From Veillonella magna DSM 19857 (GTDB lineage Bacteria; Bacillota; Negativicutes; Veillonellales; Veillonellaceae), in contig NZ_AUAN01000006.1 of NCBI RefSeq assembly GCF_000428745.1, positions 1-64,000 on the forward strand: 64,000 nucleotides of DNA, written 5' to 3'. The notes beneath the pieces are model-generated. The model did not search any database. It had not been told where the DNA came from and was given only the letters and a program-made list of their open reading frames with translations. A program made the translations under genes and the position numbers. How positions within the stretch are numbered: the stretch's first letter is position 1; each line of letters begins with the position of its first letter. This document shows, one piece after another, positions 29,068 through 46,268 of the stretch.

Positions 29068-29269
29068 CAATCAGGCCATCCGTTGTTGTAACCAGTGGAG
29101 GCACGTATGGCTGCACCAAGCCGAGTCACGTATGGCGACACGCCATACGTGCCCTGCTGTATGATCACAGTGCCGATGACTGTCGGGCCGTTGTGCCCGG
29201 CAGTATCGGTTACCGTGTTTTATTTAATTTTGTTTAATTTAAGTTAATACCTCTCGATGCATAACACAT

Positions 29270-29344
29270 AAAAGGCGATGCCCTGTACTGCAGCGATCCT
29301 ATTCGATGAATCCGACGCTGGGAGATGGGGCGTCGCCTTTTTTG
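29270..29344 (+). terminator. Rho-independent terminator
   Basis: AAAAGGCGATGCCC pairs with GGGGCGTCGCCTTTT. A secondary GCAGCG/CGCTG stem lies inside the loop. Confidence 0.8.
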
Positions 29345-29480
29345 TATTGGTATATAACGGTGTCCTAGAAAATCCTTGCCATTGTATATTTTAAGAAGTA
29401 TTCCGTGATGAAATTAGACAGCTAGCAAATTTAGAGGTCGTTGATTTCATATTGTGAATTATACATATAAAAAAAAGTTA

Positions 29481-29499
29481 TAATAACGAAACGTTATTA
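29481..29499. promoter_or_regulatory. Perfect 19-bp dyad before the tetrapyrrole island
   Basis: TAATAACG-AAA-CGTTATTA lies about 180 bp upstream of the receptor gene and touches a TATAAT box at 29479-29484. The size and symmetry suit a Fur-like or other iron/heme-responsive repressor, but it is not a standard Fur box. Confidence 0.55.
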
Positions 29500-29681
29500 G
29501 TTTTAGAGTAGAATTTATGATACAAAATAGGAGAAGTTGAATGATGAGATATATTTTCTAGTTGTGTATATACGATGTATTCTTGGATATATAAGATCTA
29601 TGGGGTATATCGAATGAGTGTATGTGTAGAGGACGTAAGTTTATTTGTTGGGCATTGATTAGGTAGAGGTAAAGTAAGCAT

Positions 29682-31934
29682 ATGGGAAAAAAACGAATAT
29701 CTGTAGGAACATTTATAGCAATGGTGTTAGGCACGGGTTGTTTGGGAATAAGTAGTGTACAGGCCATGAATGAAACTGCTGATGGATATAATGAGTACGC
29801 ATTAAATCCGGTAGTGGTAACGGCGACAAAGTCTGAGCAACAATGGATGCAGGTTCCTCAAGATGTGCAAGTCGTATCAGGAAAGGATATTAAGGAGCGT
29901 AATATTAAAACAGTAGCTGAAGCAATTCAATACTTGCCTGGGGTGTATATGAACCAAAAGGCGGTAGGCGATGTACAGATACAGGGATTTGAGGGTTCTA
30001 ATGTATTAGTTATGTTAGATGGAGTCGCTGTTAATAATACGTATGATGGAACCACGAACTGGGCAATGCTTCCTATCGGCACCATCAAGAAAATTGAGTT
30101 GGTTAAGGGTGCAGGCTCATCTTTGTGGGGCGGTCATGCTGTAGGGGCGGTTATTAACATTACTACCCAGGATACGGCTCCGACTGAAAAAGGACATGCC
30201 AATATATCTGGACGCTTGGGTTATGGCTCTCATAATACCTGGAATAGAGAACTGGCGATTGATGGCCGGATCAATGATAAGGTGACGGCAGGAATCAGTT
30301 ATGCAAAACGAAGTACATCGGGATATCCTGGGTATTACTATACAGCAAAGGCTAGCAAGGGAAAAGGAGCTATTGCCCTAGATAATGAACTGCCTAAAAC
30401 ATCAGATGGAAAGTATATATTGGGTGGTCGAGGTAAAAAGGAATGGACTACAGAAAATATAGGTGCTTGGATTAAGTACCAATTAGATGAGAGTAAGAGC
30501 GTTAAATATACATATCAGCATATGGATTACAGCTACCGGTATAAGGGTCCCTTTAGCTATGCGATACATGATGGCAAAGAGATTTTTTCCGGTAAACTTC
30601 GTGTAGATCCAACACATACTGTAAATAGCCAAATTAGTACATACTTAGGATATGATGGTCAGACAGCATCAGATATGCATCATTTGTCTTACGGAGACAT
30701 AAAGAATAAGCTTAATATATCTTTAGGTTATGTAGATACCTATGCTAATGGCTTTAGTTCGGCTGATAAAAAGGCAACTACGATTAGTTGGGATGGAGCC
30801 GGTGAATTTTCTAGTTATCCCGGCAAAGCGTATGACGCGGACATTAATAAAGTATGGGACTTAGGTAGGCATAGCTTGACGGTGGGCTTTAATTACAGGC
30901 AAGAATCATTTGATCAAGAAAGAAGTACATTACTGCATTGGCGCGACCATGATTCGCGTGATATGAATGTGGGCAAGGATGGTGTATTTGCGGCATTTGG
31001 CGGAAAATCTAAAAATACGGCCTTGTATGTACAGGATGAATACGATATTAATGATGATTGGACTGTGTATGCTGGAGCTAGATGGGATTATTATAAAAAA
31101 TTAGACGGCTATGCACATTACTATGATAATAAACATAAAAGTAATGATTTTGGAGGCGAGTCGTTTAGTGAAGTTAGCCCTAAGGTAGCTGTTCAGTATA
31201 ACCTTGATGATACTTCTTCAATATATGCTTCGTACGGTCACTCCTTCAATCCGCCTACATTATACAAGGTATATCGCTATGGTGGTGGAGGTATGGGGGA
31301 TGTTATTCCTAATCCGGGACTCAAACCGGAAACATCAGATACATTTGAATTGGGATATAAGAAAATCATTGGTACTAAAACAGCTTTGACAGCTACTTAT
31401 TTTAATGTACACACCGATGATACAATTCAATATGTAACTCATTATGATGGAGCGGATACAACAAAGGCGTTGTTCAAGCGCTATGAAAACGTAGGCAAGT
31501 CTAAGAAAAATGGGATTGAGTTGGCTGTACAACATGCTTTTAATGATAAATGGTCGGGGTATTTGAATTATACATGGCAAGAGGCAAAAATAACCGGTAA
31601 ATCAATAACTGATACAAACTTTACTGACGATACTACAGTGAGAGACTATACAGTTCCTAAACATATATTGCACAGCGGCGTGCAGTATAAAGTAGGAAAA
31701 TTAGCTACTGTTTTAGATATGCAGTATATCAGTGATAGGCAGGCTCCAGATAAGGTAACCGGCGAATATGGATCGGAAGATTCCTATGTACTGTTCAATA
31801 TGGCGATGAATTATAAATTAAATGAAGTATTGGGTATACAGTTTGCCGTTAATAATATATTTGATCGGCAGTTTTATAACTCAGAAGCTACAGATGGGCG
31901 TAGCTACCATTTGAATTTGGATTTTAAATTTTAG
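29682..31934 (+). CDS. TonB-dependent outer-membrane receptor (candidate heme/tetrapyrrole)
   Basis: This 750-residue receptor has a signal peptide (ending near SSVQA), a TonB-box-like stretch (NPVVVTAT), a plug domain (VSGKDIKERNIKTVAEAIQY, VKGAGSSLWGGHAVGAVINI) and a 22-strand type barrel ending YHLNLDFKF. A motif NPPTLYKVYR followed by NPGLKPETSDTFELG corresponds to the FRAP/NPNL region of heme receptors, but similar motifs occur in other receptors, so the ligand is inferred from context. The gene leads an island with its own energising complex. A hairpin at 31963 separates it from exbB. Confidence 0.9.
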   Translation: MGKKRISVGTFIAMVLGTGCLGISSVQAMNETADGYNEYALNPVVVTATKSEQQWMQVPQDVQVVSGKDIKERNIKTVAEAIQYLPGVYMNQKAVGDVQIQGFEGSNVLVMLDGVAVNNTYDGTTNWAMLPIGTIKKIELVKGAGSSLWGGHAVGAVINITTQDTAPTEKGHANISGRLGYGSHNTWNRELAIDGRINDKVTAGISYAKRSTSGYPGYYYTAKASKGKGAIALDNELPKTSDGKYILGGRGKKEWTTENIGAWIKYQLDESKSVKYTYQHMDYSYRYKGPFSYAIHDGKEIFSGKLRVDPTHTVNSQISTYLGYDGQTASDMHHLSYGDIKNKLNISLGYVDTYANGFSSADKKATTISWDGAGEFSSYPGKAYDADINKVWDLGRHSLTVGFNYRQESFDQERSTLLHWRDHDSRDMNVGKDGVFAAFGGKSKNTALYVQDEYDINDDWTVYAGARWDYYKKLDGYAHYYDNKHKSNDFGGESFSEVSPKVAVQYNLDDTSSIYASYGHSFNPPTLYKVYRYGGGGMGDVIPNPGLKPETSDTFELGYKKIIGTKTALTATYFNVHTDDTIQYVTHYDGADTTKALFKRYENVGKSKKNGIELAVQHAFNDKWSGYLNYTWQEAKITGKSITDTNFTDDTTVRDYTVPKHILHSGVQYKVGKLATVLDMQYISDRQAPDKVTGEYGSEDSYVLFNMAMNYKLNEVLGIQFAVNNIFDRQFYNSEATDGRSYHLNLDFKF

Positions 31935-31962
31935 TTACTTTGTTCTACGGCAGAACAAAGGG

Positions 31963-32006
31963 AGGGGCAGTCGACGTTGACGTATGAGCGAAGACTGCTC
32001 TTTTTG
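31963..32006 (+). terminator. Terminator or attenuator between the receptor gene and exbB
   Basis: GGGCAGTC and GACTGCTC form the stem, followed by TTTTTG. It may lower expression of the downstream genes relative to the receptor. Confidence 0.65.
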
Positions 32007-32031
32007 TATTAGATATAGAGGTGACGTGATC

Positions 32032-32643
32032 ATGGATTTTGGTATTTTAGTAAAGGGTGGCATCGTTATGATTCCTTTGTTGGCGTGCTCCCTGGTTTCG
32101 ATGGCAATCTTATTTGAACGCATGTATTTTTATAAAAAGTGCCACACGGATATATCTACATTGCGGAAGGCTATGACTCAGTATATACCACAAAAGAACT
32201 GGACGGCATTACAAGGTAGTTGCGATATGGTGGGAGGTAAAGCAGCTGAGATGGTAGGAGAGGCCCTTCTCCATGATAAGGCTATTGATGTACAGGAAAA
32301 GTTTGTAGATATGAAAGGAGCGGCTATTGCCGGCGAGTTACAAAACTACTTGAGCTACTTGTCGACTATTGTTACCTTGGCACCGCTGATGGGATTATTA
32401 GGTACTGTGACCGGTATGATTAGTTCATTTAACGTACTGGCAACAGCAGAGGGGCAACCGTTTGCGATTACGGGGGGTGTCAGTGAGGCATTAATTGCTA
32501 CGGCTACAGGTTTATGTGTAGCCATTATTGCATTGGTTATTCATACGTATCTCAAGCAACGACAAAATAGCTTGCTCGATGAGATTGAAGAAGTGGGAGC
32601 GTTATATATATTAACGCTGGTAGGTGATCGACATGAAGCTTAG
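32032..32643 (+). CDS. exbB: ExbB/MotA/TolQ-family proton channel subunit
   Basis: This 203-residue inner-membrane protein has three membrane segments: MIPLLACSLVSMAILFERMY, LSTIVTLAPLMGLLGTVTGM and ALIATATGLCVAIIALVIHT. The ExbB signature APLMGLLGTVTGMI is intact. The ATG at 32032 follows AGAGGTGA; a longer frame from 31984 would read through the terminator and is rejected. It forms the motor with ExbD and TonB to energise the outer-membrane receptors. Its end overlaps exbD by 11 bp. Confidence 0.93.
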   Translation: MDFGILVKGGIVMIPLLACSLVSMAILFERMYFYKKCHTDISTLRKAMTQYIPQKNWTALQGSCDMVGGKAAEMVGEALLHDKAIDVQEKFVDMKGAAIAGELQNYLSYLSTIVTLAPLMGLLGTVTGMISSFNVLATAEGQPFAITGGVSEALIATATGLCVAIIALVIHTYLKQRQNSLLDEIEEVGALYILTLVGDRHEA

Positions 32644-33034
32644 ACCGCGGCGAGACAATGAATCTCCACAACTGATGATTATTCCAATGATTGATATTAT
32701 TTTTTTCTTATTGGTGTTTTTTATGATGAGCATGCTATCCATGGTAGTACAAAAATCAATTCCTGTAGTGTTACCAGTTACGCAATCAGCAAAGCTTGAT
32801 GTAGAGCGTAAGGTTCCAGTAACAGTGACTGCAGATGGTCATGTATATGTGGAACAAGAGGGGATGAACTTGGATGTATTCGTTCGTCGCATGCAACTGG
32901 AAAAGACTCGAAATGAGAAGGTTATTATCATATTAAGGGCAGATAAGAATGTGTCTTATGGTGCAGTTGTAGCGGTACTGGATACATTGAAAAAGGTAGG
33001 ACTTAAAAATGTGTCGATTGCCACAGAACAGTAA
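32633..33034 (+). CDS. exbD: ExbD/TolR-family motor subunit
   Basis: This 133-residue protein has one N-terminal membrane helix with the essential aspartate in MIIPMIDIIFFLLVFFMMS. A periplasmic domain (VPVTVTADGHVYVEQ to VSIATEQ) follows. It is translationally coupled to exbB through the overlap. Together with ExbB it converts the proton gradient into TonB movement. Confidence 0.93.
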   Translation: MKLRPRRDNESPQLMIIPMIDIIFFLLVFFMMSMLSMVVQKSIPVVLPVTQSAKLDVERKVPVTVTADGHVYVEQEGMNLDVFVRRMQLEKTRNEKVIIILRADKNVSYGAVVAVLDTLKKVGLKNVSIATEQ

Positions 33035-33049
33035 AAGGAGGAGCCGATT

Positions 33050-33841
33050 ATGTGTGAACGCAAGCGATGGCAACGAGCGTACATAGCATCCTTAGCGGTA
33101 AATACGATATTAATCGGGTGTGGAGCATGGTATTTAACTATAGCCCATGAAGTGGTGATGCCCTCTTCGGAACCGATAGAAGTAACTATAACCGATGCGG
33201 GGGGAGGAGGCTCCTTGGAAAGTAATGGAAAGAATGCAGTTGGTCCAGCTATTTCTGTGCCTAGATCAAGTAAAGTAGTAATTCCACCGACGCCCACCTC
33301 TCTGTCAGAAGCAGAGGCTATGGTGCAAGAGTCGGTAAAAACCGTAGAAATGAATACTTCTACTCACATGTCGGTAGGAGATTTTAATGAGAGCGCTGTT
33401 GGCAATGGAGGAGAAGATGGCACAGGGGGATCTGGTGCAGGTGCCGGTGTAGGTAGTGGTATAGGCAACGGTGATGGTAATGGTGGTGGCACCGGTGACG
33501 GTAACGGACCGGGTAGTGGCGGCTCCAGCGACGGGGGTGGGGAAGACAGTGATGACTCGGTACATGATGTTGGTAGTTTGATGCCACTACATACAGTGGC
33601 CCCGATATATCCTGAACGTCTTCGAAAGCGAGGTATAAGCGGGCAGACTGTAGTTTGCCGCTTAGTAGTAGAACGAGATGGTTCCGTCAGTTCGGTATCT
33701 GTGATTAGTAGCTCTGGATATGGTGCTATGGATAGAGCTGCGGTTAATGCATTATATCAATGGACGTTTTCACCGGTGATTATTGGAGGACACGCGGTTC
33801 GTGTGACAGCGGTGCAGCCGGTTACGTTCCGGTTGCAGTGA
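33050..33841 (+). CDS. tonB: TonB-family energy transducer with glycine-rich linker
   Basis: This 263-residue protein has an N-terminal anchor (YIASLAVNTILIGCGAWYLT), a long periplasmic linker and a TonB C-terminal domain (LHTVAPIYPERLRKRGISGQ to VQPVTFRL). The linker around residues 120-170 is made of G, N, D and S (for example GSGIGNGDGNGGGTGDGNGP) instead of the proline-rich spacer of classical TonB. It should link the ExbBD motor to both TonB-dependent receptors of the island. It begins 15 bp after exbD. Confidence 0.9.
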   Translation: MCERKRWQRAYIASLAVNTILIGCGAWYLTIAHEVVMPSSEPIEVTITDAGGGGSLESNGKNAVGPAISVPRSSKVVIPPTPTSLSEAEAMVQESVKTVEMNTSTHMSVGDFNESAVGNGGEDGTGGSGAGAGVGSGIGNGDGNGGGTGDGNGPGSGGSSDGGGEDSDDSVHDVGSLMPLHTVAPIYPERLRKRGISGQTVVCRLVVERDGSVSSVSVISSSGYGAMDRAAVNALYQWTFSPVIIGGHAVRVTAVQPVTFRLQ

Positions 33842-33851
33842 GGATGATGAG

Positions 33852-34805
33852 ATGATAGTTATCCGGCGAAGATATTTTTATTATGTTGTTTTAGGGTTGT
33901 CTGCTTTGGCTTTTTTTATATGTGTGATGGGGTGTGGACTGAACATACAACCAAAATTAACGGAGCCTACGCGTATTCTTATTGATGATCAGGGCTGTCG
34001 GGTGGAAGTACCAGAACATCCACAGCGGATTCTATCAATGACATCAGCATTTGATACGATTTTACTGGACATTGTGTCACCTCAGCGCATAGTGGCGATA
34101 GGATCGTTGGCTACCTATGAAGACTACTCTTTGTCGTGGCAAAAAGCGAGGCAGGTACCTATTGTATTGCGGGAATATAATTTAGAACGCATAGTGGCAT
34201 TGCACCCGGATGTTGTTATTGTACCGGATTATTATAGCAAAGATACAGTAGATGGGCTGCGGGGTGCAGGTATTCCTACTGTAGTTATTCATACGGACAC
34301 AACAGTAGAGTATGTACCACAGCTTATTCAGCGTTTAGCAGATGTTGTTAATGAGCCAAAACAGGGAAAAAAATTAGTTGATATTATCAATCAAGATTTA
34401 GATATCGTGAAAAAGAAAGCAGATAGAATTGCTAGGGATGATGAACGTTCTGCTATTTTCTTATCTACGATGAGTGGCTATACGGGCACAGGCAGTCTGT
34501 TTGATCATATGTGTACATATATGCATATTAAACACCCTCCATCAGAGTTACATTATCCTTCAAGGATACCGTTTACGGATGAACGCATTGTTGAGATGAA
34601 TCCTGATTTTGTATTTGTGCCGGTGTATCGAGAAAAAGACTATCGCATGGTGAAACAGTTTTACGAGGATCCGGCGTATTCTGGGATGAAGGCAGTTCGA
34701 GATAAGCGAGTGCTTCCCATGAAGTCAGCATATCTGTATACGGGGAATCAATATATAGGTAAGGTTATGTTAACTATAATGAATGTTGTTTATCCAGAGC
34801 TATAG
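33852..34805 (+). CDS. FecB/BtuF/HmuT-type substrate-binding lipoprotein
   Basis: This 317-residue protein has a signal peptide with a possible lipobox (ICVMGC, Cys near residue 28) and the class III binding-protein fold: RILIDDQGCRVEVPEHPQRI, then IVALHPDVVIVPDYY and RIVEMNPDFVFVPVY. These proteins bind iron-siderophores, heme or corrinoids in the periplasm. It precedes the permease and ATPase genes in typical order. The ligand is not readable from the sequence. Confidence 0.88.
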   Translation: MIVIRRRYFYYVVLGLSALAFFICVMGCGLNIQPKLTEPTRILIDDQGCRVEVPEHPQRILSMTSAFDTILLDIVSPQRIVAIGSLATYEDYSLSWQKARQVPIVLREYNLERIVALHPDVVIVPDYYSKDTVDGLRGAGIPTVVIHTDTTVEYVPQLIQRLADVVNEPKQGKKLVDIINQDLDIVKKKADRIARDDERSAIFLSTMSGYTGTGSLFDHMCTYMHIKHPPSELHYPSRIPFTDERIVEMNPDFVFVPVYREKDYRMVKQFYEDPAYSGMKAVRDKRVLPMKSAYLYTGNQYIGKVMLTIMNVVYPEL

Positions 34806-34832
34806 TTTGTAATGGATGAAGAAAGGTGAGAT

Positions 34833-35873
34833 ATGATGCACCAATTACAGAAAGTGTATGGATACGGGTTAGGTCTTGTCATAGCATTTGTAATATTATT
34901 TGTCGTATCTATTCACATGGGAACAATTACGATACCTATAAATGGAGCCATTGACGAAATTACGCGTGCTATAGGGTTCGTCAATGGAATCGGTGCACCA
35001 CTTGACGATAATCAAAGAGCTGTTTTTTGGTTTATCAGGTTACCACGTTTACTGGTGGGTGTCTTGGTGGGCAGTGCTTTAGCGACAGCTGGAGCGGTTA
35101 TGCAAGGTGTATTCGCTAATCCGCTTGCCGATCCCGGTGTTGTTGGCGTTTCATCAGGGGCTTCTTTAGGTGCCGTGATTGCCATTGCATTAGGGCTTAC
35201 ATCCGTGAGTATGTTTTATATGCCTTTGTTTGCGTTCGGAGGAGCCTTTGGTGCCGTTGTATTAATTGTAGGTCTTGCCATGAGGGATAATAAAGTGCAA
35301 CCGATTACGTTACTATTATCCGGTGTAGCGGTAAGTTTATTTTTAGGGGCATTAACATCAGGACTACTGACATTTATGAATGAATACCGTTTACGGGAAT
35401 TTCTGTTTTGGATGGTGGGAGGTCTCGATTATCGACGATGGGAGCATGTGGTCATTGCCATCGGTCCGATTATAGTAGGTATCAGCGTATTATTTATGCT
35501 GGCACGACACTTAAATGTATTAGTGTTAGGTGATGTAGAGGCAAGGGCACTGGGACAATCAGTAATGTTCTATCGCTTACTATTCCTTAGTATTGCTTCC
35601 GTAATCACGGCTACCGCAGTATGCGTCAGCGGCTTTGTTGGCTTTGTCGGTTTGGTGGTTCCTCATATTATGCGTATTCTGGTAGGTCCCGATCACCGAA
35701 GTCTACTACCACTGTCCGCACTGGCAGGAGCGGTATTCCTAGTCTTTTGCGATACGTTGGGGCGTGTTATATTAACACCTATCGAAATTCGATTAGGTAT
35801 TATGACGGCGCTGGTAGGAGCTCCGTATTTCTTGTTTTTATTGCGTAGATTGCGGGCAGAAGGAGGCATTTAA
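34833..35873 (+). CDS. FecCD-family ABC transporter permease
   Basis: This 346-residue permease has about ten membrane segments and the family signatures FWFIRLPRLLVGVLVGSALA, GVFANPLADPGVVGVSSGAS and GFVGLVVPHIMRILVGPDHR. It belongs to the FecCD/BtuC/HmuU group, which works as a homodimer. Its stop codon is one base from the ATPase start, so the two are tightly coupled. Confidence 0.95.
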   Translation: MMHQLQKVYGYGLGLVIAFVILFVVSIHMGTITIPINGAIDEITRAIGFVNGIGAPLDDNQRAVFWFIRLPRLLVGVLVGSALATAGAVMQGVFANPLADPGVVGVSSGASLGAVIAIALGLTSVSMFYMPLFAFGGAFGAVVLIVGLAMRDNKVQPITLLLSGVAVSLFLGALTSGLLTFMNEYRLREFLFWMVGGLDYRRWEHVVIAIGPIIVGISVLFMLARHLNVLVLGDVEARALGQSVMFYRLLFLSIASVITATAVCVSGFVGFVGLVVPHIMRILVGPDHRSLLPLSALAGAVFLVFCDTLGRVILTPIEIRLGIMTALVGAPYFLFLLRRLRAEGGI

Positions 35874-35874
35874 T

Positions 35875-36732
35875 ATGACTGTCATGGAAGCGAAGAACGT
35901 GTCTGTGTCTGTGCAGGATAGGAGTATTCTTACAAAGTGTTCGCTCACCGTTGGCAGAGGTGAATTTATTGGCATTATAGGACCTAACGGATCAGGAAAA
36001 ACGACGTTTTTAAAGTCGTTACGGGGCATCCAACCCATTAGCCAAGGACAGATTTTTTTGTATGACCATCTATTGACTCAAATGACAGATAAAACTATCG
36101 CACGGCAAGTGGCATACATGCAACAATCGGTAAAAGTGGGCTTTGGTTATAGCGTGAAGGATATTGTCATGACGGCGCGGTATCCGTATATAGCATGGTG
36201 GCAAAATAGTACATCAAAAGATAGCCAAATAGTAGAAGAGGCTATGCGGTATACCGGGGTATGGGAGTTGAGAGAAAAGAATATACAAGCTATTAGTGGC
36301 GGTGAAAGGCAACGTGTTTTTTTGGCTAAGGCGTTAGCACAGGATACAGATATTTTATTATTGGATGAACCGACAGCTGCACTTGATATTGGCTATGCAG
36401 ACGATATGTTTCGACATTGTCAAGAATTATGCCATGCAGGTAAGACTATCGTTATAGTAGTCCATGATTTGGAAATGGCTGCCAAATTTTGTAGTCGCCT
36501 AGTTTTATTTGCTAATGGTCAGATTGTGGCAGATGGGGAACCGCACATAGTTATGAATGCAAAAAATTTGGGAAAGGCATTCCATATTTCGTCTACTGTT
36601 TATGAGGATGCGCTATTCAGACAAAGGAGAATTTATGTATATCCGTATGGTGTACGCATAAGACAGTCGCAACATTTACGCCCGGGGGTACAAATTCCAG
36701 AAGAAGCATCCACTATGATTCTTAATGAGTGA
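35875..36732 (+). CDS. FecE/BtuD/HmuV-type ABC transporter ATP-binding protein
   Basis: This 285-residue ATPase has Walker A GPNGSGKTTFLK, Q-loop AYMQQS, signature ISGGERQRVFLAKAL, Walker B ILLLDEPTAALD and H-loop VVHDLE. Its start follows AAGGAGG at the end of the permease gene. With the two preceding products it forms an importer for an iron complex or metal-tetrapyrrole. Confidence 0.95.
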   Translation: MTVMEAKNVSVSVQDRSILTKCSLTVGRGEFIGIIGPNGSGKTTFLKSLRGIQPISQGQIFLYDHLLTQMTDKTIARQVAYMQQSVKVGFGYSVKDIVMTARYPYIAWWQNSTSKDSQIVEEAMRYTGVWELREKNIQAISGGERQRVFLAKALAQDTDILLLDEPTAALDIGYADDMFRHCQELCHAGKTIVIVVHDLEMAAKFCSRLVLFANGQIVADGEPHIVMNAKNLGKAFHISSTVYEDALFRQRRIYVYPYGVRIRQSQHLRPGVQIPEEASTMILNE

Positions 36733-36759
36733 GTTATACGTATGGAAGGAGTGGTTACC

Positions 36760-37692
36760 ATGAAAAAGATATATCCTTTTTCAGCAATAGTAGGGCAAGA
36801 GGTGATGAAAGAAGCATTGCTGCTTAATGCAATTTCTCCAGAAGTAGGCGGTGTGCTGATAAAAGGGGAAAAAGGGACGGCGAAATCAACGGCAGTGCGC
36901 GCCTTAGCCGATATATTGCCTCCCTTATCTGATGCAGAAGAGACATGTATGAAAGTTGTTGAACTTCCTGTTAATGCTACGGAAGATCGAGTGGTAGGGA
37001 CGATTAATTTAGAGCAAATCTTACAAAAAGGGGAAAAACAATTTGAGCCAGGACTTTTGGCAGAGGCCCATAATAATATTTTGTATGTAGATGAGATTAA
37101 TTTGTTGGATGATCATGTAGTTGATGTATTGCTGGATGCAGCCGCTATGGGGATTAATACAGTAGAGAGAGAGGGGATTAGCTATTCTCATCCGGCAAGA
37201 TTTGTGCTAGTAGGGACGATGAATCCGGAAGAAGGCGAGATTCGCCCTCAATTATTAGATCGAATTGGTTTATCTGTAGATGTATATGGAGAAAGAGAGA
37301 GTCATAAACGCGTGGAGGTTATTAAGCGACGATTGGCATATGAAGCCAATCCAGATGCGTTCTGCGAGTCATATGAAGCAGAACAGCAGGAATTACGTCA
37401 TCGTGTTATATTAGCTCGTAAGCGTTTACAGGAGATTTCTGTTACTGATGAGTTATTAGAAGCGATTACGACAATTTCTATTACGCTCAATGTTGATGGA
37501 CACCGACCAGATATTACCATGTTACATACGGTGCGGGCGATGGCTGCATGGGAGGGTAATGCTGTGGTAACAGAAGAACAATTACTAAGAGCGGCAAGAT
37601 TAGTGATGCCGCATAGAATGCGACGTAAGCCTTTTGAGGAAACAACGATTGATTGGCAATATGTTGCGGAAGTATTGCAAAGAAAGCAGTAA
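36760..37692 (+). CDS. ChlI/BchI-type AAA+ chelatase subunit
   Basis: This 310-residue ATPase resembles the I subunit of magnesium chelatase: [20 protein letters not shown], Walker [15 protein letters not shown], Walker [21 protein letters not shown], and the sensor and arginine-finger region [20 protein letters not shown]. The ATG at 36760 sits correctly behind GAAGGAG; an ATG at 36742 lies before it. It would form the hexameric motor that drives the large CobN-like subunit. No chlorophyll genes are present, so a magnesium chelatase role is unlikely. Confidence 0.92.
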
Positions 37693-37696
37693 CCTT

Positions 37697-39646
37697 ATGA
37701 AAAGAGAAAGAATAGATATTGCGCTAGAAATGGCATACATACATCCTGGTATTGGGAGCATATTGCTTATAGGACCTACCGGCTGCGGTAAGAGCCACAG
37801 AATACGGGCTTTTTTTCAGGAACAAGGGATACCTTTGGTAACGATTCCTATTTATGCAACACAGGAGACTTTGTGCGATCATCTTGATATAAAAGAAACA
37901 TTGCAAAAAGGTACGCTACACACGGAGGAGGGACTGCTTTCCAAAGGCAGAGGAGGAGTTATATATATTGATGATGTTGATCATCTTTCTTGTGAGCAGT
38001 GGCGATGTATTAGACAACAGCAATACAGTAAAGAGAAAGGTTTGCCGATATTTACATTGGTTGGGACAATAAATACAAGTGAAAATGAAATAGATAGGGC
38101 CTTTATCAATGAGTTCGATTTGATTGTAGTTATGTGTAATCCTACGAAGGAAGAGCGTATTACAGTTTTAAGGGATCTAGCAAGAGCGAGTAAACAGTTA
38201 GAGCGACAAGAAATGGTTAAGACCTGTGTTACGGATATTCAGTTACCACAAAAAGAGGCAGCATATAGAGAAAAAATGGCGAGTCGATGTCTCAATATCA
38301 GGCTAGACGATTCGATGAGACAGCTTATTGCTGAGTACTGCACGGCCAATGGCATAGTTGGTAATGTTAAAGAGATTTGTATAGGAAGGGCAGCGTCAGC
38401 GATTGCGGTGCTAGATAATAAGGAATATGTATTACCAAGTCACATTGAAACAGCTATACGCTATACAATCTTTACAGCAGGGAACAGAGACTCTCCGTCA
38501 GGAAATACTAATATGGATAATGTAGATCACAAAGATGAAGGTAAGAAAGATGGTCAAGAAAAACACGAGAGACCACAGAATAATATAGTGCCACCAAGGG
38601 AAAATAAGACAGTAACAGATCGAGAGAGCAATGTGAAGGGGCAATGGCCGACAATACAATTAAAGGATCAAGGCACAGAGGACACGATAGTTTCTGGTAA
38701 AGATAATGAAAGTAAACAAGACGGTTCGTGCAATCAAATAAAAATGACTATGCAAAAGCAATCTGATGGCACGGCAAGGGGCAATAATCAGTTAAAAAAA
38801 GATAAAGAGAAAGTTATACCGACCCCAGAAAATTATAATGCATTAGCTTTTGCCGTAAAAAAACGGATGGACTCCTTTTGTCGATCGGGCGCGGGGAGAC
38901 AGATGACGACGCATAGTAAGAGCGGTAGGGGGCGTTATATTCGAGCTGTTAAATCAAAAGGGGATAGTAGGGATATAGCATTAGAAGCGACAGTACGTGC
39001 AGCGGCTCTTAGACAGGGCGGACGCAGAGAAGGTCCTATGGCTATAGTGATTCATAAGGAAGATATATATGTGAAGTTGAGAGAAACACGGGTAGGTAGA
39101 CATATATTATTTGTTGTAGATACCAGTGGTTCTATGGGGGCGAAAGAACGTATGGAAGCGGTGAAAGGTACGATTGCCGCTCTGTTGCAGGATGCATATG
39201 AAAAGCGAGATGTGGTGGGGGTTATTAGTTTTCGACGGATGAAAGGCGAGGTGATACTCCCCTTCACGCGGAGTGTAGTACTAGCTCGACAAAGAATGGA
39301 ACAATTGTCAACGGGTGGTCGTACTCCATTAGCAGAAGGCATTCGGATGGCGAGTAATACATTGCAACAGTTAATGAGAAAACAGCCGATGGCTCGTCCT
39401 TTGGTGGTGTTTGTAACGGATGGTCGTGCTACATATGGTAGTACGGATAATCCGGTAGAAGAAGCCTATCAAGCGGGACGCCAGCTAGCAATGTTACAGG
39501 TAGATGGGATTATCTTAAATACGGAACAGGGACCGATAACTGTAGGTATTGCCAAACCATTGGCTGAAATTATGGGAGCTGCATACTATCATTTGGATTG
39601 TTTAAAAGATATTCATATTATAGGGGCTATTGCAGCAGCTAGATAG
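37697..39646 (+). CDS. ChlD/BchD-type chelatase subunit (AAA+ plus vWA)
   Basis: This 649-residue protein has an N-terminal AAA+ domain with P-loop GPTGCGKS and VIYIDDVDHL, then a charged, glutamine- and lysine-rich linker (about residues 270-390). A C-terminal von Willebrand A domain has the MIDAS motif VVDTSGSMG, the conserved STGGRTPLAEGI and FVTDGRATYG. This is the D-subunit plan of magnesium and cobalt chelatases. It couples the ATPase ring to the large subunit. The ATG at 37697 is four bases after the previous stop codon. Confidence 0.92.
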   Translation: MKRERIDIALEMAYIHPGIGSILLIGPTGCGKSHRIRAFFQEQGIPLVTIPIYATQETLCDHLDIKETLQKGTLHTEEGLLSKGRGGVIYIDDVDHLSCEQWRCIRQQQYSKEKGLPIFTLVGTINTSENEIDRAFINEFDLIVVMCNPTKEERITVLRDLARASKQLERQEMVKTCVTDIQLPQKEAAYREKMASRCLNIRLDDSMRQLIAEYCTANGIVGNVKEICIGRAASAIAVLDNKEYVLPSHIETAIRYTIFTAGNRDSPSGNTNMDNVDHKDEGKKDGQEKHERPQNNIVPPRENKTVTDRESNVKGQWPTIQLKDQGTEDTIVSGKDNESKQDGSCNQIKMTMQKQSDGTARGNNQLKKDKEKVIPTPENYNALAFAVKKRMDSFCRSGAGRQMTTHSKSGRGRYIRAVKSKGDSRDIALEATVRAAALRQGGRREGPMAIVIHKEDIYVKLRETRVGRHILFVVDTSGSMGAKERMEAVKGTIAALLQDAYEKRDVVGVISFRRMKGEVILPFTRSVVLARQRMEQLSTGGRTPLAEGIRMASNTLQQLMRKQPMARPLVVFVTDGRATYGSTDNPVEEAYQAGRQLAMLQVDGIILNTEQGPITVGIAKPLAEIMGAAYYHLDCLKDIHIIGAIAAAR

Positions 39647-39668
39647 ATTGAGTAAAGGGGGATTGTCT

Positions 39669-42600
39669 ATGATAAAGAAAATACTGTTTATTACTAGTAA
39701 AAATAGGCAATATGAATGTGCATTACAAGGCATTTCGTCAATCAGGAACTCCCTGGAGGTTGATTTGACTGTGAAGTTTATGCGACGTGACGCTGTGTTT
39801 GATGAGCAGTGGAGAAAAGCACTAGTCAATAGTGATTGCGTATGCATTACCCATGCTGGTACGGGGGTGGATACTCCTTTTTTAGAGGATGCGGAAAAAT
39901 GGTTACGACAGTATCATCCTATGTATATCATGGTATTGGATACAGGAGGGCAAAAAAAAGAGAATCCCAAGAAAGGCATTGGACAGCAAGAGGAAGATGA
40001 GATTTTGCTATATTTAGCACATTTTAGTCAAGAAAATTATGGAGGTCTTGTTTCCTATTTGTTATCTTTGACAGGCAGCATGTGTGAGGTTGTTCGCCCA
40101 AAACTAATACCTTGGTATGGTATTGTTGGTATTAATGGTGAAGTATATGAATCTTATGGAGCTTATCGGCAGTCATATCCTGAGAAATCAAAGAACTGCA
40201 TTGGTATCTTATTCTATCGCGAAGAGTGGATAGAAGGAACTCTAGAGTATCAAAGAGCATTGATAGAATGCATCCAACAAAAGGGTTGGGACGCTGTGCT
40301 GTTTTTTTCTTTCTATGGACGCAATGAAAAGACGGGGCAAACGTCGTTAAAGGAATCTATGGATGCCTTGTTTGGTCCCAACCAGTGCCCTTTGTCAGCG
40401 ATTATCAATACGTGTAAATTTTCTTCTATTGGTTTGAAAGGCGTATTACCTGAAGAATTAATTGCCTATGATATCCCTTGGTTTACGGGCACGGTTTCTT
40501 ATGGAAGTGAAGTATCGTGGCAGGAACGGAGTGAGGGCTTGCCGGCACAGGAAATCACTATGTCGTTAGCCATGCCAGAGATGGATGGATGTATTCATGG
40601 AGGGTTAGTAGCGACAAAGGAACAAGGAGAGGAAGGATTTCATAACTATCACCCCATACGAGAAAGAGTAGAGGCTGTTGTAGAGCGAGTGTATCATTGG
40701 GTAAGGTTACGGAACATTCCCAATAAGGATAAGCGCGTAGCTATTATTTTCCATAATTATCCGCCAACGAATGCTACAATCGGTTCGGCAGCGGGGTTAG
40801 ATACTCCGGAATCTGGAAGACAAATTTTACAGGCTATGTATGAAGCAGGGTACACAATAGACTATGTACCGGCTACTGGACAGGATATTATCGAACGAGT
40901 AGTTGCTCATGCGACCAATGATAAAGAGTGGCAAAGCGAGGATAAGCTAGAACTAGCGGAGGGGAAACTAACGCCTAGTAATTACAGCATATTCTATACA
41001 GCGTGCCCTCCTAAGGTGCAACAACAAATGGAGATGCAATGGGGCAAGGCACCGGGAAATGTTTATGTACATCAAGGTGACATGATTGTACCGGGCTTTT
41101 CTAACGGAAATATATGGATTATGTTACAGCCTCCACGTGGGTTTAGTGAGAATCCCAGTGCGCTATATCATGATCCGTTGTGCCCGCCCACACATCAGTA
41201 TGAAGGCGTATATCATTGGCTGCGGTATGTGTGGAAAGCAGATGCTGTTATTCATGTAGGAACACATGGCTCTTTAGAATGGTTACCAGGAAAAGGAACG
41301 GCGCTTAGTGATGGATGTTATCCAGAAATGGCCATTGATTATTTGCCCAATATATATCCGTACTGGACGACCATTGTTGGCGAAGGATTACAAGCAAAGC
41401 GCAGAAGTGCAGCATGCTTAATCGGCCATTTATCTCCACCTATGACGCGGGCCGGTTTATACAGTGAGTACGCAGAATTAGAACGGATGATAGATGAATA
41501 TGAGGATTATCACCGCCACGGTGATATGTTTGCATGTGATCAAGTATATTGTTTACTGGAGAAGAAGGCATATAAGTGTCATCTTCTTGATAAAGGTGGT
41601 GAGATTCATGAAAAAGAAAAAACTATACAAGTATTACACGAAAAGCTTACAGATCTAAAGTTCATGCAAATACGCTGTGGTTTACATGTACTGGGACAAG
41701 TACCTAATGGCAAGAAGAAAGTTGCTTATCTTATTGAGTTGCTCAGAACGTCCAACCCGGGAGCGCCTTCATTGGTACAGTGTCTACAGTCGATAGATAG
41801 CAACGAGGATTGTTGGCAAGCTGCAGAAGAAATGATAGAAGCTGTTCTTGATGAGAGAAGAGGACAAGAGGCTTGGCAGATGACTCCGAGGATGAAGTAC
41901 TTTTGGCAACGGACGCAAGAGAAGGATAGGAAGGCATTATACCGGATAGTGCGTTCAATACGAGAGTGCTATGTACCGGCTTTAGCGCAGACGGGTAATG
42001 AAATTGCACATATAATACATGCACTTGATGGTGGATACATACCAGTAGGCCCAGGTGGGGCTATATTTGGAGGTAGAGCAGATGTGCTACCTACAGGACG
42101 TAACTTTTTTGGCGTAGATGAACGTGCTTTGCCAACGAAGACTGCATATACAATCGGAATGAAATTGGCAGATGAACTAATTATGTCTTTCATCAAGAAA
42201 GAAGGTAAGTATCCAGAAGAGGTAGGGATTGTACTTTGGGCAGATAACACAGCACGGAATTATGGTCAATGTGTAGCTCAATTTTTATACTTATTAGGGG
42301 TGCGGCCCGTATGGCAGGATGGAGGTGGTCGCGTTATTGGTCTTGAGGTTATTCCCTTAGAAGAGTTGAAGCGTCCAAGGATTGATGTTACTGGACGTAT
42401 TAGTGGTTTGATGCGCGATATGATGCCTACGACTATTCAGTGGTTAGATAAAGCCGTTCTTTTGGTAGCTGATAGGGAGGAATCTTGGGATGAAAATTAT
42501 ATAAGAAAACACATACAAGCCGATATGAATTGGCTTATTGAACAAGGCGAGGCAAAGGAAGATGCCCGTATAAAGTCAAGCTGGCGTATTTTCGGTGATC

Positions 42601-43307
42601 CTCCAGGAGCTTATGGCGCAGGCGTTAACCAAGTGATTGATAATAAGAATTGGGAAACCCTTGATGATTTAGCAAGGGTATACACGACTTGGAGTAGTTA
42701 TAGCTATAGCACGCAAAAATCGTTACCGCAGGACAAGCGACTTTTTGAACGTCGGATGGCAACAATTGATGTCACGGTAAAAAATGAAGATAATCGAGAG
42801 GTAAGTTTGCTGAGTACAGATGATTTTAGTTCCTATCATGGTGGAATGATTGCGGCGGTGAAACATTATAGTGGAAAGGTGCCGATGTCATTTGTTGGTG
42901 ATACATCTAATATAGATCAACCTGTGGTGCGACAATTAAAAGATGAAATAGAAAGGACATTTCGGGGGGAAGCAGTGAATCCTAAATTTATTAAAGGAAT
43001 GATGGAGCATGGGTATAAGGGGGCTGCTGATATGGCAGGCTATGTAGCTCATACTTTTGCTTGGGATGCCACGGCAGGAATTGTTGATGACTGGATATAT
43101 GAAGAATATGCTACATCTTACGTACTGGATCACAGTGTAAGAGAGTGGATGCAAGAAGTGAATCCTTGGGCAGTGCAACGGATGGTAAATACGCTGTTAG
43201 AGGCCATTAAAAGGGGACTGTGGCAGGCTATGGAAGAAATGGAAAATCAATTAGCATCTATTTTTTTATCGGTAGATGGTGATTTAGAAGAACGTAGTGA
43301 GTCGTGA
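39669..43307 (+). CDS. CobN/HmuS/ChlH-family large chelatase subunit
   Basis: This 1212-residue protein has the family hallmarks HVGTHGSLEWLPGKGTALSD (near residue 530), GEGLQAKRRSAACLIGHLSP with PMTRAGLY, GGRADVLPTGRNFFGVDERA and GIVLWADNTARNYGQ. The C-terminus is VNPWAVQRMVNTLLEAIKRG. The ATG at 39669 follows AAGGGGG. The family includes CobN (cobalt insertion), ChlH (magnesium insertion) and HmuS, a CobN-like protein of Bacteroidetes heme-uptake operons linked to iron removal from heme. The transporter context, plus the absence of corrin or chlorophyll synthesis genes, favours an HmuS-like role. Direction and metal are inference. Confidence 0.88.
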   Translation: MIKKILFITSKNRQYECALQGISSIRNSLEVDLTVKFMRRDAVFDEQWRKALVNSDCVCITHAGTGVDTPFLEDAEKWLRQYHPMYIMVLDTGGQKKENPKKGIGQQEEDEILLYLAHFSQENYGGLVSYLLSLTGSMCEVVRPKLIPWYGIVGINGEVYESYGAYRQSYPEKSKNCIGILFYREEWIEGTLEYQRALIECIQQKGWDAVLFFSFYGRNEKTGQTSLKESMDALFGPNQCPLSAIINTCKFSSIGLKGVLPEELIAYDIPWFTGTVSYGSEVSWQERSEGLPAQEITMSLAMPEMDGCIHGGLVATKEQGEEGFHNYHPIRERVEAVVERVYHWVRLRNIPNKDKRVAIIFHNYPPTNATIGSAAGLDTPESGRQILQAMYEAGYTIDYVPATGQDIIERVVAHATNDKEWQSEDKLELAEGKLTPSNYSIFYTACPPKVQQQMEMQWGKAPGNVYVHQGDMIVPGFSNGNIWIMLQPPRGFSENPSALYHDPLCPPTHQYEGVYHWLRYVWKADAVIHVGTHGSLEWLPGKGTALSDGCYPEMAIDYLPNIYPYWTTIVGEGLQAKRRSAACLIGHLSPPMTRAGLYSEYAELERMIDEYEDYHRHGDMFACDQVYCLLEKKAYKCHLLDKGGEIHEKEKTIQVLHEKLTDLKFMQIRCGLHVLGQVPNGKKKVAYLIELLRTSNPGAPSLVQCLQSIDSNEDCWQAAEEMIEAVLDERRGQEAWQMTPRMKYFWQRTQEKDRKALYRIVRSIRECYVPALAQTGNEIAHIIHALDGGYIPVGPGGAIFGGRADVLPTGRNFFGVDERALPTKTAYTIGMKLADELIMSFIKKEGKYPEEVGIVLWADNTARNYGQCVAQFLYLLGVRPVWQDGGGRVIGLEVIPLEELKRPRIDVTGRISGLMRDMMPTTIQWLDKAVLLVADREESWDENYIRKHIQADMNWLIEQGEAKEDARIKSSWRIFGDPPGAYGAGVNQVIDNKNWETLDDLARVYTTWSSYSYSTQKSLPQDKRLFERRMATIDVTVKNEDNREVSLLSTDDFSSYHGGMIAAVKHYSGKVPMSFVGDTSNIDQPVVRQLKDEIERTFRGEAVNPKFIKGMMEHGYKGAADMAGYVAHTFAWDATAGIVDDWIYEEYATSYVLDHSVREWMQEVNPWAVQRMVNTLLEAIKRGLWQAMEEMENQLASIFLSVDGDLEERSES

Positions 43308-43430
43308 GCAAATTATGCGAAACATTATAAAGCAAAAATTAGTAAGAGGGGGAGAGGTGAGAAGTGGGAAGGTAATGTATTGGTAGTAAGGCTTGGCAAT
43401 AGTGAATATATTGGGTATGGAGGTAGTACA

Positions 43431-45362
43431 ATGAAAGCAAAAACGTGGTTATATGGAATGGTGATGGCAACATTAATAGTACCTGTAGGAAGTAGTAGTG
43501 CATCAACTGATAATTCAGTAGCGTATACATTAAATCCGTATACAGTGACGGCACAACGTACAAAACGGGCTGATTTAGATACACCTAGTGCAACAACTGT
43601 ATTGACTCAGGAGCAACTCAAGGCAACAGGCGCATCAACGGTATTTGACGCACTTTCTTTTGTTACTGGAATTACAGATTTTTCATATGGCCCAGGTGGC
43701 ATGGATTATGGGGCGATGGATAGTCGTGTAAATATACGAGGCATTGAACGTGGTACATTAATTCTCGTAAATGGGGCACCTATTAATTTGAATGGTAAAA
43801 ACTCTGTCAGTGGACTTAACTTAGATGAGGTAGAACAAGTTGAGGTAGTGCGTGGAGCTGCATCAACTCTGTATGGTGCAGAAGCTATGGGAGGTGTAAT
43901 TAATATTACAACTAAGTCTGCAGATGAATCTAAGAATATAGCAAAAGTATATGGAGGAAATCACGGAAAAAAAGGATATGATGTGACTCTTAGCAATGAG
44001 AAGGTACGTATAAATGTGTCTAAAGATTTTGCTGGACGTATTAATCAAGTGAGTCCGGTGCGGTTGGATAGAGCCTACTATAATAGCTTAGGTAAAAGTG
44101 ATCAGCTCTCACTATCTGCTAATGTACAATTGGATGATCGCTGGAATTTTAATTACATGCGATCGGAAAGTAATAGTCAATATGAACAGACGAATACATC
44201 AGATAATTGGTTAATACGAAAACAGAAAACACCGACGTATGCGTATAATGATAAACGCAATAATGCGGTATTGACATATGATGTTAATGACGTGAAGGGG
44301 ATTATCTTCTACAATGACCGTCTCTTGTACGGACAAACTAAGGATTATCGTAAGTATAAAAATTATAGCTTTTATGACAATGATAGCAATTATACGGCGA
44401 GAAAAATTGGAGGAGATATACAAAAGACATGGCATCTAAGGAATAATAGAGATACATTTGTAGGGGGATTTATGGTAAGCCGTGATACCTATGAGGGTAC
44501 TTCTAAGGCTAATAAGGATGTGCAGGCAGGACGTAATACCCTGGCGGCATATGGCAGTTATAGTTATAAAATTTCTCCGCGTTGGACAACAACAATAGGT
44601 GCCAGATATCAGGTGATTAACGATCCAGTAAAGGATCAACATGTATTTATGCCCCAGTGGCAGACCCTATATGCATTGGATAGTACGACCTCTATTTATA
44701 CAAATATTGGTAAATCATTTACTATGCCAGCCCTTTCAGATAGTATGGCTAAGAATAAGCAAGGGAAATATATTGCCGTAAGTGGGAAAAATCTAAAACC
44801 TGAAGAAGGATGGAATTATGAAATTGGACTGAAAAAAATATATGACAAGAGCTCTTTGCGGATAGCTTTGTATCATATGAAGTTTGATAATTTATTTGCT
44901 TGGGCCCCAGACGACACAGGTAAGAAGACGATTCGTATTAATGGCGGTGAATTCAAAAATACTGGGATAGAAGTAGAGTATCGTCAACATATCAATACAA
45001 AATGGCAATGGGGTAGTGGCGTGTCTTATTCAAATCCACAACAACAAGATTATGTTAAGGGAGCGTGGGAACTGGCATATCCTAAGATTCAAGCAAATGC
45101 ATTCCTTACATATACCAATAATAAATGGAGTGGTGGAACATCCATTAATTGGTTGACCAAGCGACTGGAAAATAGAGATGGACGCACAAATCCTGATCTT
45201 ATTCGCTGGAATGGATATATTGAGTATGAAGTAACGAAGGATAGTAAAATACGATTAGATGTAGAAAATATATTGAATAGGCATAATGTAATAACCAATG
45301 GTAGTTATGAATATTGGGATTACCCGCGCAGTTACCGAATTACGTATACTCAGAGTTGGTAA
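43431..45362 (+). CDS. Second TonB-dependent outer-membrane receptor
   Basis: This 643-residue receptor has a signal peptide ending near SSSAS, a TonB-box-like NPYTVTAQ, a plug domain (TTVLTQEQLKATGASTVFDA, VEVVRGAASTLYGAEAMGGV) and a barrel ending YRITYTQSW. NLKPEEGWNYEIGLKK matches the conserved barrel motif of siderophore and heme receptors. The ATG at 43431 follows GGAGGTAG. It is 123 bp behind the CobN-like gene on the same strand and in the same A+T-rich sequence, so it is probably part of the island. Confidence 0.92.
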   Translation: MKAKTWLYGMVMATLIVPVGSSSASTDNSVAYTLNPYTVTAQRTKRADLDTPSATTVLTQEQLKATGASTVFDALSFVTGITDFSYGPGGMDYGAMDSRVNIRGIERGTLILVNGAPINLNGKNSVSGLNLDEVEQVEVVRGAASTLYGAEAMGGVINITTKSADESKNIAKVYGGNHGKKGYDVTLSNEKVRINVSKDFAGRINQVSPVRLDRAYYNSLGKSDQLSLSANVQLDDRWNFNYMRSESNSQYEQTNTSDNWLIRKQKTPTYAYNDKRNNAVLTYDVNDVKGIIFYNDRLLYGQTKDYRKYKNYSFYDNDSNYTARKIGGDIQKTWHLRNNRDTFVGGFMVSRDTYEGTSKANKDVQAGRNTLAAYGSYSYKISPRWTTTIGARYQVINDPVKDQHVFMPQWQTLYALDSTTSIYTNIGKSFTMPALSDSMAKNKQGKYIAVSGKNLKPEEGWNYEIGLKKIYDKSSLRIALYHMKFDNLFAWAPDDTGKKTIRINGGEFKNTGIEVEYRQHINTKWQWGSGVSYSNPQQQDYVKGAWELAYPKIQANAFLTYTNNKWSGGTSINWLTKRLENRDGRTNPDLIRWNGYIEYEVTKDSKIRLDVENILNRHNVITNGSYEYWDYPRSYRITYTQSW

Positions 45363-45646
45363 AGGTGAGAGTGAAGTACAAATAAAATATTCTCGCTAGA
45401 TGAAGTGGATGGTAGATCTAATGTTTTAGCCATTTACAGTAAGTTAAATGAAATATGCTAATAGGTGACTGTTAGCCTTACACGTCATTTTTGGAACGAG
45501 TCACGATAAAAGACAGCCGCTATAGCGGTCTATATTCGCTATAGTAAGGATAGATCTTGCATAGACGTTGCGAGGAACCATGGTGCTGCATCGGCAGCCA
45601 CCATGTGATGTATGAAGACGCGTATACAGTAGAAAGGATGCTAACT

Positions 45647-46268
45647 ATGAATACATTACGACTACTCTATCCGGAATGGCAAGCCGGAGATAAGAAAGGC
45701 TATTATTTAGGGGCGCAACTATTGGCAACGTTAGCACCGGGTGGTGATCACCAGCGCACGCGGCAGGTGCCGGTGATGATGCCTACGGGAACACGCTATG
45801 GTGTGGGCTAATCTTATGCATCGAGGTGACTCCCTGGTACAATCGACGGTAAAACACCCGTTTACGGCAGAGGATATTTTGTACGTAGGCCTCTAGCCGT
45901 TGACGCAAGAGGAAGTACCGCGCATGAAGGAGTTAGGGATTGCCTATACCATTCAAGGGGTGGAATTACTATCCAATGATGTGATTGGGCAGTGGATAAC
46001 GGCACATGGGTTTACTGCGTTGGCAGTCCATTGGGATTTAGATGTATTGCATCCGGACAGCTTTCATTCTTTATATTTCAATGAACCGGGCGTTCCTCGG
46101 TTTACGGGATCATCCCATGGTATTTATAGCCTAGAGCAAATTACGAGTATGTTGCGATCTGTACAAGATATGGCGGATATCGTAGGCTTTACAGTGGCCG
46201 AGTATCTGCCGTGGGATGCCATTCAATTGCGCCAATCGCTGGGACTGCTGTCTATTTTTAGTGAGTAG
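45647..46268 (+). pseudogene. Arginase/agmatinase-family pseudogene
   Basis: An intact-looking start (MNTLRLLYPEWQAGDKKGYY) runs to a stop at 45811. A second segment (ANLMHRGDSLVQ to EDILYVGL) then reads into an in-frame TAG at 45894-45896. A third segment from 45900 carries the arginase metal motif HWDLDVLHPDSF and ends at 46268. The central part that should hold the DAHxD metal ligands is deleted at the first break. The gene is therefore non-functional through an internal deletion plus a stop codon. It lies at the right edge of the A+T-rich island. Confidence 0.8.

Follow-up and report, generated by a model that had tools for sequence, protein, structure and literature searches.

Analysis of a 64,000-nucleotide stretch of the Veillonella magna DSM 19857 genome (hereafter, the window) revealed a gene island whose probable role is to take up a corrin-type (B12-related) tetrapyrrole with TonB power and to handle its cobalt by means of an ATP-driven chelatase. 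The genome has a size of 2.2 Mb in 34 contigs and is 99.99% complete; the window is part of contig C5. A previous reading of the sequence alone had interpreted these genes as a system for importing heme and removing its iron anaerobically. This function is not favoured by our results, as the traits of HmuS are absent and relatives of the cluster are under the control of cobalamin riboswitches.

Organization of the island

The island extends from 29,682 to 45,362 on the forward strand. On the basis of Pfam and NCBIfam assignments and intact open reading frames, it contains two TonB receptors, ExbB-ExbD-TonB, a FecBCD/BtuFCD-type importer and all three chelatase subunits on one strand, as had been claimed before. 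The genes are arranged in the order TBDR1 (TonB-dependent receptor, 29682-31934; PF00593/PF07715), ExbB (31984-32643; PF01618), ExbD (32633-33034; PF02472), TonB (33050-33841; PF03544), a substrate-binding protein with an N-terminal hydrophobic segment and a lipobox-like Cys (33852-34805; PF01497), a FecCD/BtuC-type permease (34833-35873; PF01032), the importer ATPase (35875-36732; PF00005), the AAA+ motor subunit ChlI (36742-37692; PF01078/PF17863; 442 bits with TIGR02442), the AAA/vWA subunit ChlD (37697-39646, with alternative starts at 37634 and 37661; PF13519 and AAA; 329 bits with TIGR02442), the CobN-type large chelatase subunit (39669-43307; 1169 bits with PF02514; TIGR02257) and the second TonB-dependent receptor, TBDR2 (43431-45362, first possible start at 43380; PF00593/PF07715). 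None of them contains an internal stop, and the figure of 1212 residues given earlier for CobN is correct when counted from its ATG. The gaps of 1-27 bp reported earlier were found from ExbB to CobN, where two genes overlap by 11 bp instead, but not at the two ends of the island: the gap between TBDR1 and ExbB is 49 bp and holds a weak terminator-like hairpin, and that between CobN and TBDR2 is 123 bp (counted to the likely ATG). The importer-ChlI-ChlD-CobN block is found again in many relatives, so that the gene arrangement cannot be put down to chance.

Upstream of the island, a perfect inverted repeat (TAATAACG-AAA-CGTTATTA, 29481-29499) might serve as an operator. No other site in the source genome matches AATAAC-N5-GTTATT perfectly. 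When one mismatch was allowed, 15 matches were observed versus 10 in the control, which is near chance; the palindrome was thus rejected as a regulon marker, with the exception of a single one-mismatch site (C1:2867) located before a CbiK-type gene and its partner binding protein gene. Further upstream (29080-29345), we observed two inverted repeats, one being CACGTATGGCG-ACA-CGCCATACGTG and the other a hairpin (GGCGAtgcc...ggcgTCGCC) with T's behind it; they had no Rfam match.

The G+C content of the island is 41.5%, compared with 49.7% in the remainder of the window, and an IstB-type gene is located ∼3 kb upstream. Thus, it is possible that the island was acquired by horizontal transfer. Between TBDR2 and a TetR regulator gene (46409-46951), the region 45639-46268 contains broken remains resembling an arginase-family gene, without a family match. 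The purple-acid-phosphatase gene to the right of the island has homologs in congeners.

Comparison with NCBIfam models and solved structures suggested that the receptors and the binding protein leave the substrate ambiguous. The top subfamily model for TBDR1 was TonB-hemin (214.6 bits, below the cut-off of 316.85), and its best PDB match was the heme receptor PhuR (91 bits), with BtuB at 59 bits. TBDR2 has partners with 42-53% identity in other Veillonellaceae CobN clusters. PDB matches of the binding protein included siderophore, hemin and B12 binders, all of them weak. The permease had BtuC (PRK09535, 293 bits) as its top NCBIfam model, and the importer ATPase scored equally with heme and corrinoid ATPase models (228 bits each).

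Chelatase subunits and origin of CobN

The Walker A motif of ChlI is intact (GEKGTAKST), and ChlD, whose PDB matches were BchD and ChlI, possesses both a Walker A motif (GPTGCGKS) and a MIDAS motif (DTSGS). Judging from these motifs, the ChlI-ChlD-CobN machine looks complete, and the earlier claim of tetrapyrrole uptake and a three-subunit, ATP-dependent class I chelatase is supported by gene content as well. CobN scored 881.7 bits with the cobN equivalog model TIGR02257 (cut-off 822.05) and 714 bits with the ChlH model TIGR02025 (below the cut-off of 829). Its nearest solved protein was Mycobacterium tuberculosis CobN (677 bits), compared with 368 bits for HmuS.

A tree was built on 421 C-terminal columns; it covers only this part because the PDB rows are the aligned parts taken from the search output, and the HmuS branch is long. 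The island CobN was placed in a clade of CobN-like proteins from Negativicutes and a few other anaerobes (support 100/100), which is nested in a CobN group (100/99) together with B12 CobNs, Acetobacterium and archaeal proteins, with HmuS and ChlH outside. Approximately unbiased (AU) tests rejected the grouping of the island CobN with HmuS (p 0.0011) as well as that of its clade with either HmuS (p 0.00065) or ChlH (p 0.006). Kinship with HmuS, as suggested before, is thus not supported by the phylogeny, which indicates a CobN-type ancestry. The sequence-only reading had also regarded placement within the B12 CobN clade as evidence against a heme function. The island CobN clade is separate from the B12 CobNs, to which a sister relation was supported by 51/16 only, yet it lies within the wider CobN group that holds them. 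Acetobacterium CobNs form a distinct clade, and CobN-like proteins of Runella and Pseudoalteromonas cluster with HmuS, away from the island CobN. On a Runella slithyformis plasmid (L163:3962-12358), such an HmuS-group gene, together with a TonB receptor and ExbB, is surrounded by hydrogenase (hyp) and urease-accessory genes, which suggests a nickel role for it.

HmuS is membrane-bound and NADH-dependent, has a Met-rich insertion and two cleft residues, His-538 and His-1209, and works without ChlI/ChlD (PMC12583661, PMC13227078); its heme ligands in the head and neck are Met-79/His-254. In the Bacteroides thetaiotaomicron protein, 21 Met occur within about 120 residues (PMC12583661). Neither a Met-rich insertion (at most 4 Met per 60 residues and 8 per 120) nor an N- or C-terminal membrane anchor (top 19-residue hydropathy 1.15) was found in the island CobN, which is soluble according to hydropathy. 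HmuS His-1209 aligns with Asp-1052 of the island CobN. In an alignment of 121 proteins, this position is Asp in 109, including B12 CobNs, and His in HmuS, Synechocystis ChlH, Roseobacter BchH and one divergent row. Such a difference may separate corrin from porphyrin substrates, a rule with few characterised proteins behind it. The superfamily His (His-538 in the GHT of HmuS, His-533 in the GTHG of the island CobN) is kept in 112 of the 121 rows and is not specific to HmuS. The island further departs from the hmuYRSTUV operon, which lacks ChlI/ChlD, in having adjacent ChlI and ChlD and a FecBCD importer. On the basis of the missing insertion and anchor, the Asp residue and the rejected joint clade, we rejected an HmuS identity. 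A magnesium chelatase (ChlH/BchH) identity was also rejected, considering the TIGR02025 score, the AU test and the absence of BchN/BchB, as no PF00148 protein was found in the source genome.

Second CobN copies of Acetobacterium and Alkalibaculum (L136:18373-21813; L134, L135 and L140) have Ala or Gly instead of the superfamily cleft His and lack the Asp pair, and thus may be non-catalytic partners.

Homologous clusters and cobalamin riboswitches

A single-sequence contig search with the island CobN yielded no relatives, and an alignment query was required. Homologous CobN was identified in two of six searched congeners. The importer-ChlI-ChlD-CobN block occurs repeatedly in Veillonellaceae and, in reordered form, in other Negativicutes, Acetobacterium, Bathyarchaeota and Methanomassiliicoccales. 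In the 35 named loci of the CobN clade, radical SAM proteins, ChlD and the binding protein were most frequent (25 each), followed by ChlI (23), FecCD (20), TonB receptors (17), nitrogenase component-1-like proteins (16) and CbiZ (15); the identities of CbiZ, NifH-like and component-1-like proteins are based on a Pfam check of example proteins. Four Cys are invariant across 18 NifH-like proteins, and two of these Cys (97 and 131) are at the iron-sulfur ligand positions of NifH. We considered whether the module requires nitrogenase-like genes and rejected this, since they are absent from the source genome and from most Veillonellaceae genomes with CobN, and present in one congener without CobN. 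Several CbiZ-like proteins (∼370-420 aa; for example, L082:15256-16425 and L079:16772-18028) have a C-terminal extension past the 191-position CbiZ domain.

In the sister group in the tree, CobN-ChlI-ChlD is followed by heme-synthesis genes. In Veillonella sp. 3891 and its kin (L086:16549-20723; L122 and L051), genes for uroporphyrinogen decarboxylase, ferrochelatase and a fused amino-oxidase/chlorite-dismutase-type protein come straight after CobN-ChlI-ChlD, and the same continuation was found in Veillonella sp. 3310.

The 39 CobN loci (831 kb) contained 42 cobalamin riboswitches (50.6 per Mb) versus 2 in the 2.2-Mb source genome, a density that refers to loci picked for holding CobN and not mutually independent. 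Thirteen of the 42 head gene runs that contain CobN, such as those of Selenomonas F0473 (L092) and Megamonas (L087). The run of Phascolarctobacterium faecium (L082) comprises NifH, two component-1-like proteins, binding protein, FecCD, CobN, radical SAM and CbiZ, and in Acididesulfobacillus (L081) a short ORF on the opposite strand separates the riboswitch from the binding protein-FecCD-ABC-CobN run downstream of it. Riboswitch-led CobNs of L069, L081, L082, L087 and L092 all fall into the 100/100 clade of the island CobN. Homologs of ExbB (44% identical) and ExbD (56%) are located in one operon directly behind a cobalamin riboswitch in L078, and so is a partial TBDR2 homolog (44% identical) in L089. 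Cobalamin riboswitches allow expression when cobalamin is low. No cobalamin riboswitch was found in the window (at gathering score or E ≤ 5) or in the closest Veillonella clusters scanned, and no CbiZ was found in the island.

Riboswitches also head operons encoding NifH-like and two nitrogenase component-1-like proteins in five CobN loci (L082:4296-16425, L064, L069, L071 and L072); these loci also encode a CbiZ-like protein or a radical SAM enzyme. No description of a riboswitch-controlled nitrogenase-like system of this kind was found in the literature searched.

B12 and heme genes in the source genome

It was previously stated that corrin synthesis genes and cobalamin riboswitches are lacking. 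This is true within the window but not for the genome, which contains cbiC, cbiJ, cbiH, cbiG, cbiF, cbiT, cbiE and cbiD (all on contig C12), cbiK and two riboswitches. Three CbiK homologs are encoded on contig C1, two of which adjoin a CbiL-like gene (named from its sequence) and one of which has an N-terminal signal-like segment. The latter is paired with a binding protein (C1:547-2734; L058); the palindrome similar to that of the island is ∼133 bp upstream of this pair, and the two other CbiK genes follow on the opposite strand. The single CbiZ of the genome is located away from the island (C2:94185), and ferrochelatase is present. A cobalamin riboswitch 6 kb to the right of the window (C5:70261-70441) lies upstream of a MATE transporter gene and then nickel/cobalt-type Opp ABC importer genes. 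As the genome possesses CbiD, CbiG and CbiK of the early-insertion (anaerobic) route, inserting cobalt de novo does not require CobN. The earlier view that the island does not insert cobalt is supported for de novo B12 synthesis; cobalt insertion into a salvaged corrin is now favoured.

Comparison with known systems

The most similar clusters are operon-2 of Dehalobacter restrictus and its Acetobacterium woodii counterpart, in which a FecBCD/BtuCDE-like importer is clustered with CobN and ChlI/ChlD-type subunits in anaerobes that also have cbi genes; this cluster is thought to have been horizontally acquired (PMC4285132). Operon-2 encodes a FepBCD/BtuCDE-like importer, CobN and Mg-chelatase subunits. 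Unlike the island, it contains two cbiZ genes as well as a cobalamin riboswitch, and TonB receptors are not mentioned (PMC4285132). On corrinoid starvation, its transcript increased 346-fold and its protein 46-fold (PMC4285132). Induction by cobalamin limitation, which the sequence-only reading had named as evidence against a heme function, is thus the published behaviour of a similar cluster, not of the island itself.

In Chlorobium/Chlorobaculum, which are anaerobes with anaerobic cbi genes, a TonB receptor and BtuCDF are likewise found near CobN and the I/D subunits; these organisms differ in being phototrophs with an extra BchH-like copy and riboswitches near transport genes, and it has been suggested for Chlorobaculum that cobalt is put into cobalamin that has been acquired (PMC8620254). 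The Bacteroidota hmu operon shares with the island a TonB receptor, an ExbB-type protein and a CobN-fold protein, but HmuS is membrane-anchored, Met-rich and NADH-dependent, has no ChlI/ChlD and belongs to another clade with another cleft residue (PMC12583661, PMC13227078). In Bacteroides, hmu-like operons with a cobalamin riboswitch have already been treated as probably related to cobalamin and not heme (PMC10100974). In aerobic B12 CobN-CobS-CobT, the CobN-type large subunit likewise has an AAA+ and a vWA partner; the island CobN belongs to a separate clade, its partners are of the ChlI/ChlD type, and the B12 synthesis genes found in its genome are those of the early-insertion route. Finally, Pseudomonas aeruginosa PA1922-PA1925 contains a TonB receptor, a CobN-like protein and ExbD, but is zinc-regulated, and ChlI/ChlD are not listed in the operon (PMC4542158). 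Judged by these comparisons, the island belongs to a known type of CobN-ChlID cluster that is linked to cobalamin and uncharacterised in biochemical terms; it is a TonB-fed version that lacks both a riboswitch and a cbiZ gene in the cluster.

Proposed function and alternative explanations

With regard to substrate, metal, direction of transfer and regulation of the island copy, we infer the following. One or both TonB-dependent receptors would bring the ring across the outer membrane, energised by ExbB-ExbD-TonB of the island, and the BtuFCD-like binding protein, permease and ATPase would carry it into the cytoplasm. There, CobN would bind the tetrapyrrole, and the AAA+ ring of ChlI/ChlD would power an ATP-dependent metal transfer. 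Most likely, the metal would be cobalt and its acceptor a salvaged corrin without metal or with the wrong one, which would then enter the organism's own B12 pathway. Two considerations favour insertion over removal: expression of homologous clusters is expected at low cobalamin, as shown for D. restrictus, and metal insertion is what the characterised three-subunit complexes of CobN and ChlH carry out (PMC7689651). A corrin substrate is suggested by the CobN score and tree, the Asp cleft residue, riboswitches and CbiZ in loci of the clade, the BtuC-like permease, the cbi genes, the induction in D. restrictus and the Chlorobaculum proposal; evidence against it includes the lack of a riboswitch and CbiZ in the island, the heme-receptor-like TBDR1 and the heme-synthesis genes of the sister group. 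More tentatively, the island could be a reduced version of a previously undescribed tetrapyrrole pathway of diderm Firmicutes under cobalamin repression, in which CobN-ChlID metallates an imported corrin-type ring and fuller versions add nitrogenase-like reduction and modification by radical SAM and long CbiZ-like amidohydrolase enzymes, all under cobalamin riboswitches.

The same heme-receptor-like TBDR1, together with the absence of riboswitches from the nearest clusters and the heme genes that follow those of Veillonella sp. 3891 and 3310, makes a substrate change in a Veillonella subclade possible, whereby CobN was recruited to heme and ATP-driven CobN-ChlID removes its iron anaerobically after uptake, leaving protoporphyrin. 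HmuS demonstrates that the CobN fold can remove heme iron, but it does so with NADH and no ChlID (PMC12583661). Considering that the island CobN lacks the HmuS traits and is rejected from its clade, that the His common to the porphyrin enzymes HmuS and ChlH is replaced by Asp, and that homologous clusters are cobalamin-regulated, such a heme function appears unlikely.

Two further explanations concern metal acquisition. In the first, an exported CbiK would load cobalt into a metal-free tetrapyrrole outside the cytoplasm, the island would import the product and CobN-ChlID would strip the cobalt for B12; this seems improbable. CbiK genes with signal-like N-termini adjoin CobN clusters in relatives, the source genome has its own signal-like CbiK and binding protein pair behind a related palindrome, several relatives' clusters contain ABC-2 exporters, and cobalamin control would suit a need for cobalt; however, export genes are absent from the window, the shared palindrome is near chance level and no scavenger of this kind is known. 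Uptake of another metal (zinc or nickel) via a CobN-like system, comparable to the Zur-regulated PA1922-PA1925, is very improbable: zinc or nickel genes are absent from the island, and the Runella protein encoded amid nickel-hydrogenase genes groups, like that of Pseudoalteromonas, with HmuS and not with the island CobN, although CobN-like genes with TonB receptors do respond to zinc in P. aeruginosa (PMC4542158).

Implications

The annotation 'cobaltochelatase CobN' is common in anaerobes with no need for such an enzyme, and most sequences annotated as such cannot be reliably assigned according to the study of HmuS (PMC12583661). In relatives of the island, the link between cobalamin riboswitches, CobN-ChlID and nitrogenase-like proteins points to chemistry for which no description was found in the literature searched. 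The case of the island guards against spreading the term 'heme dechelatase' to Negativicutes from operon resemblance alone. It also suggests a testable rule for sorting corrin-type from heme-type members of the family, which may be told apart by their clade, by Asp or His in the cleft and by riboswitch context.
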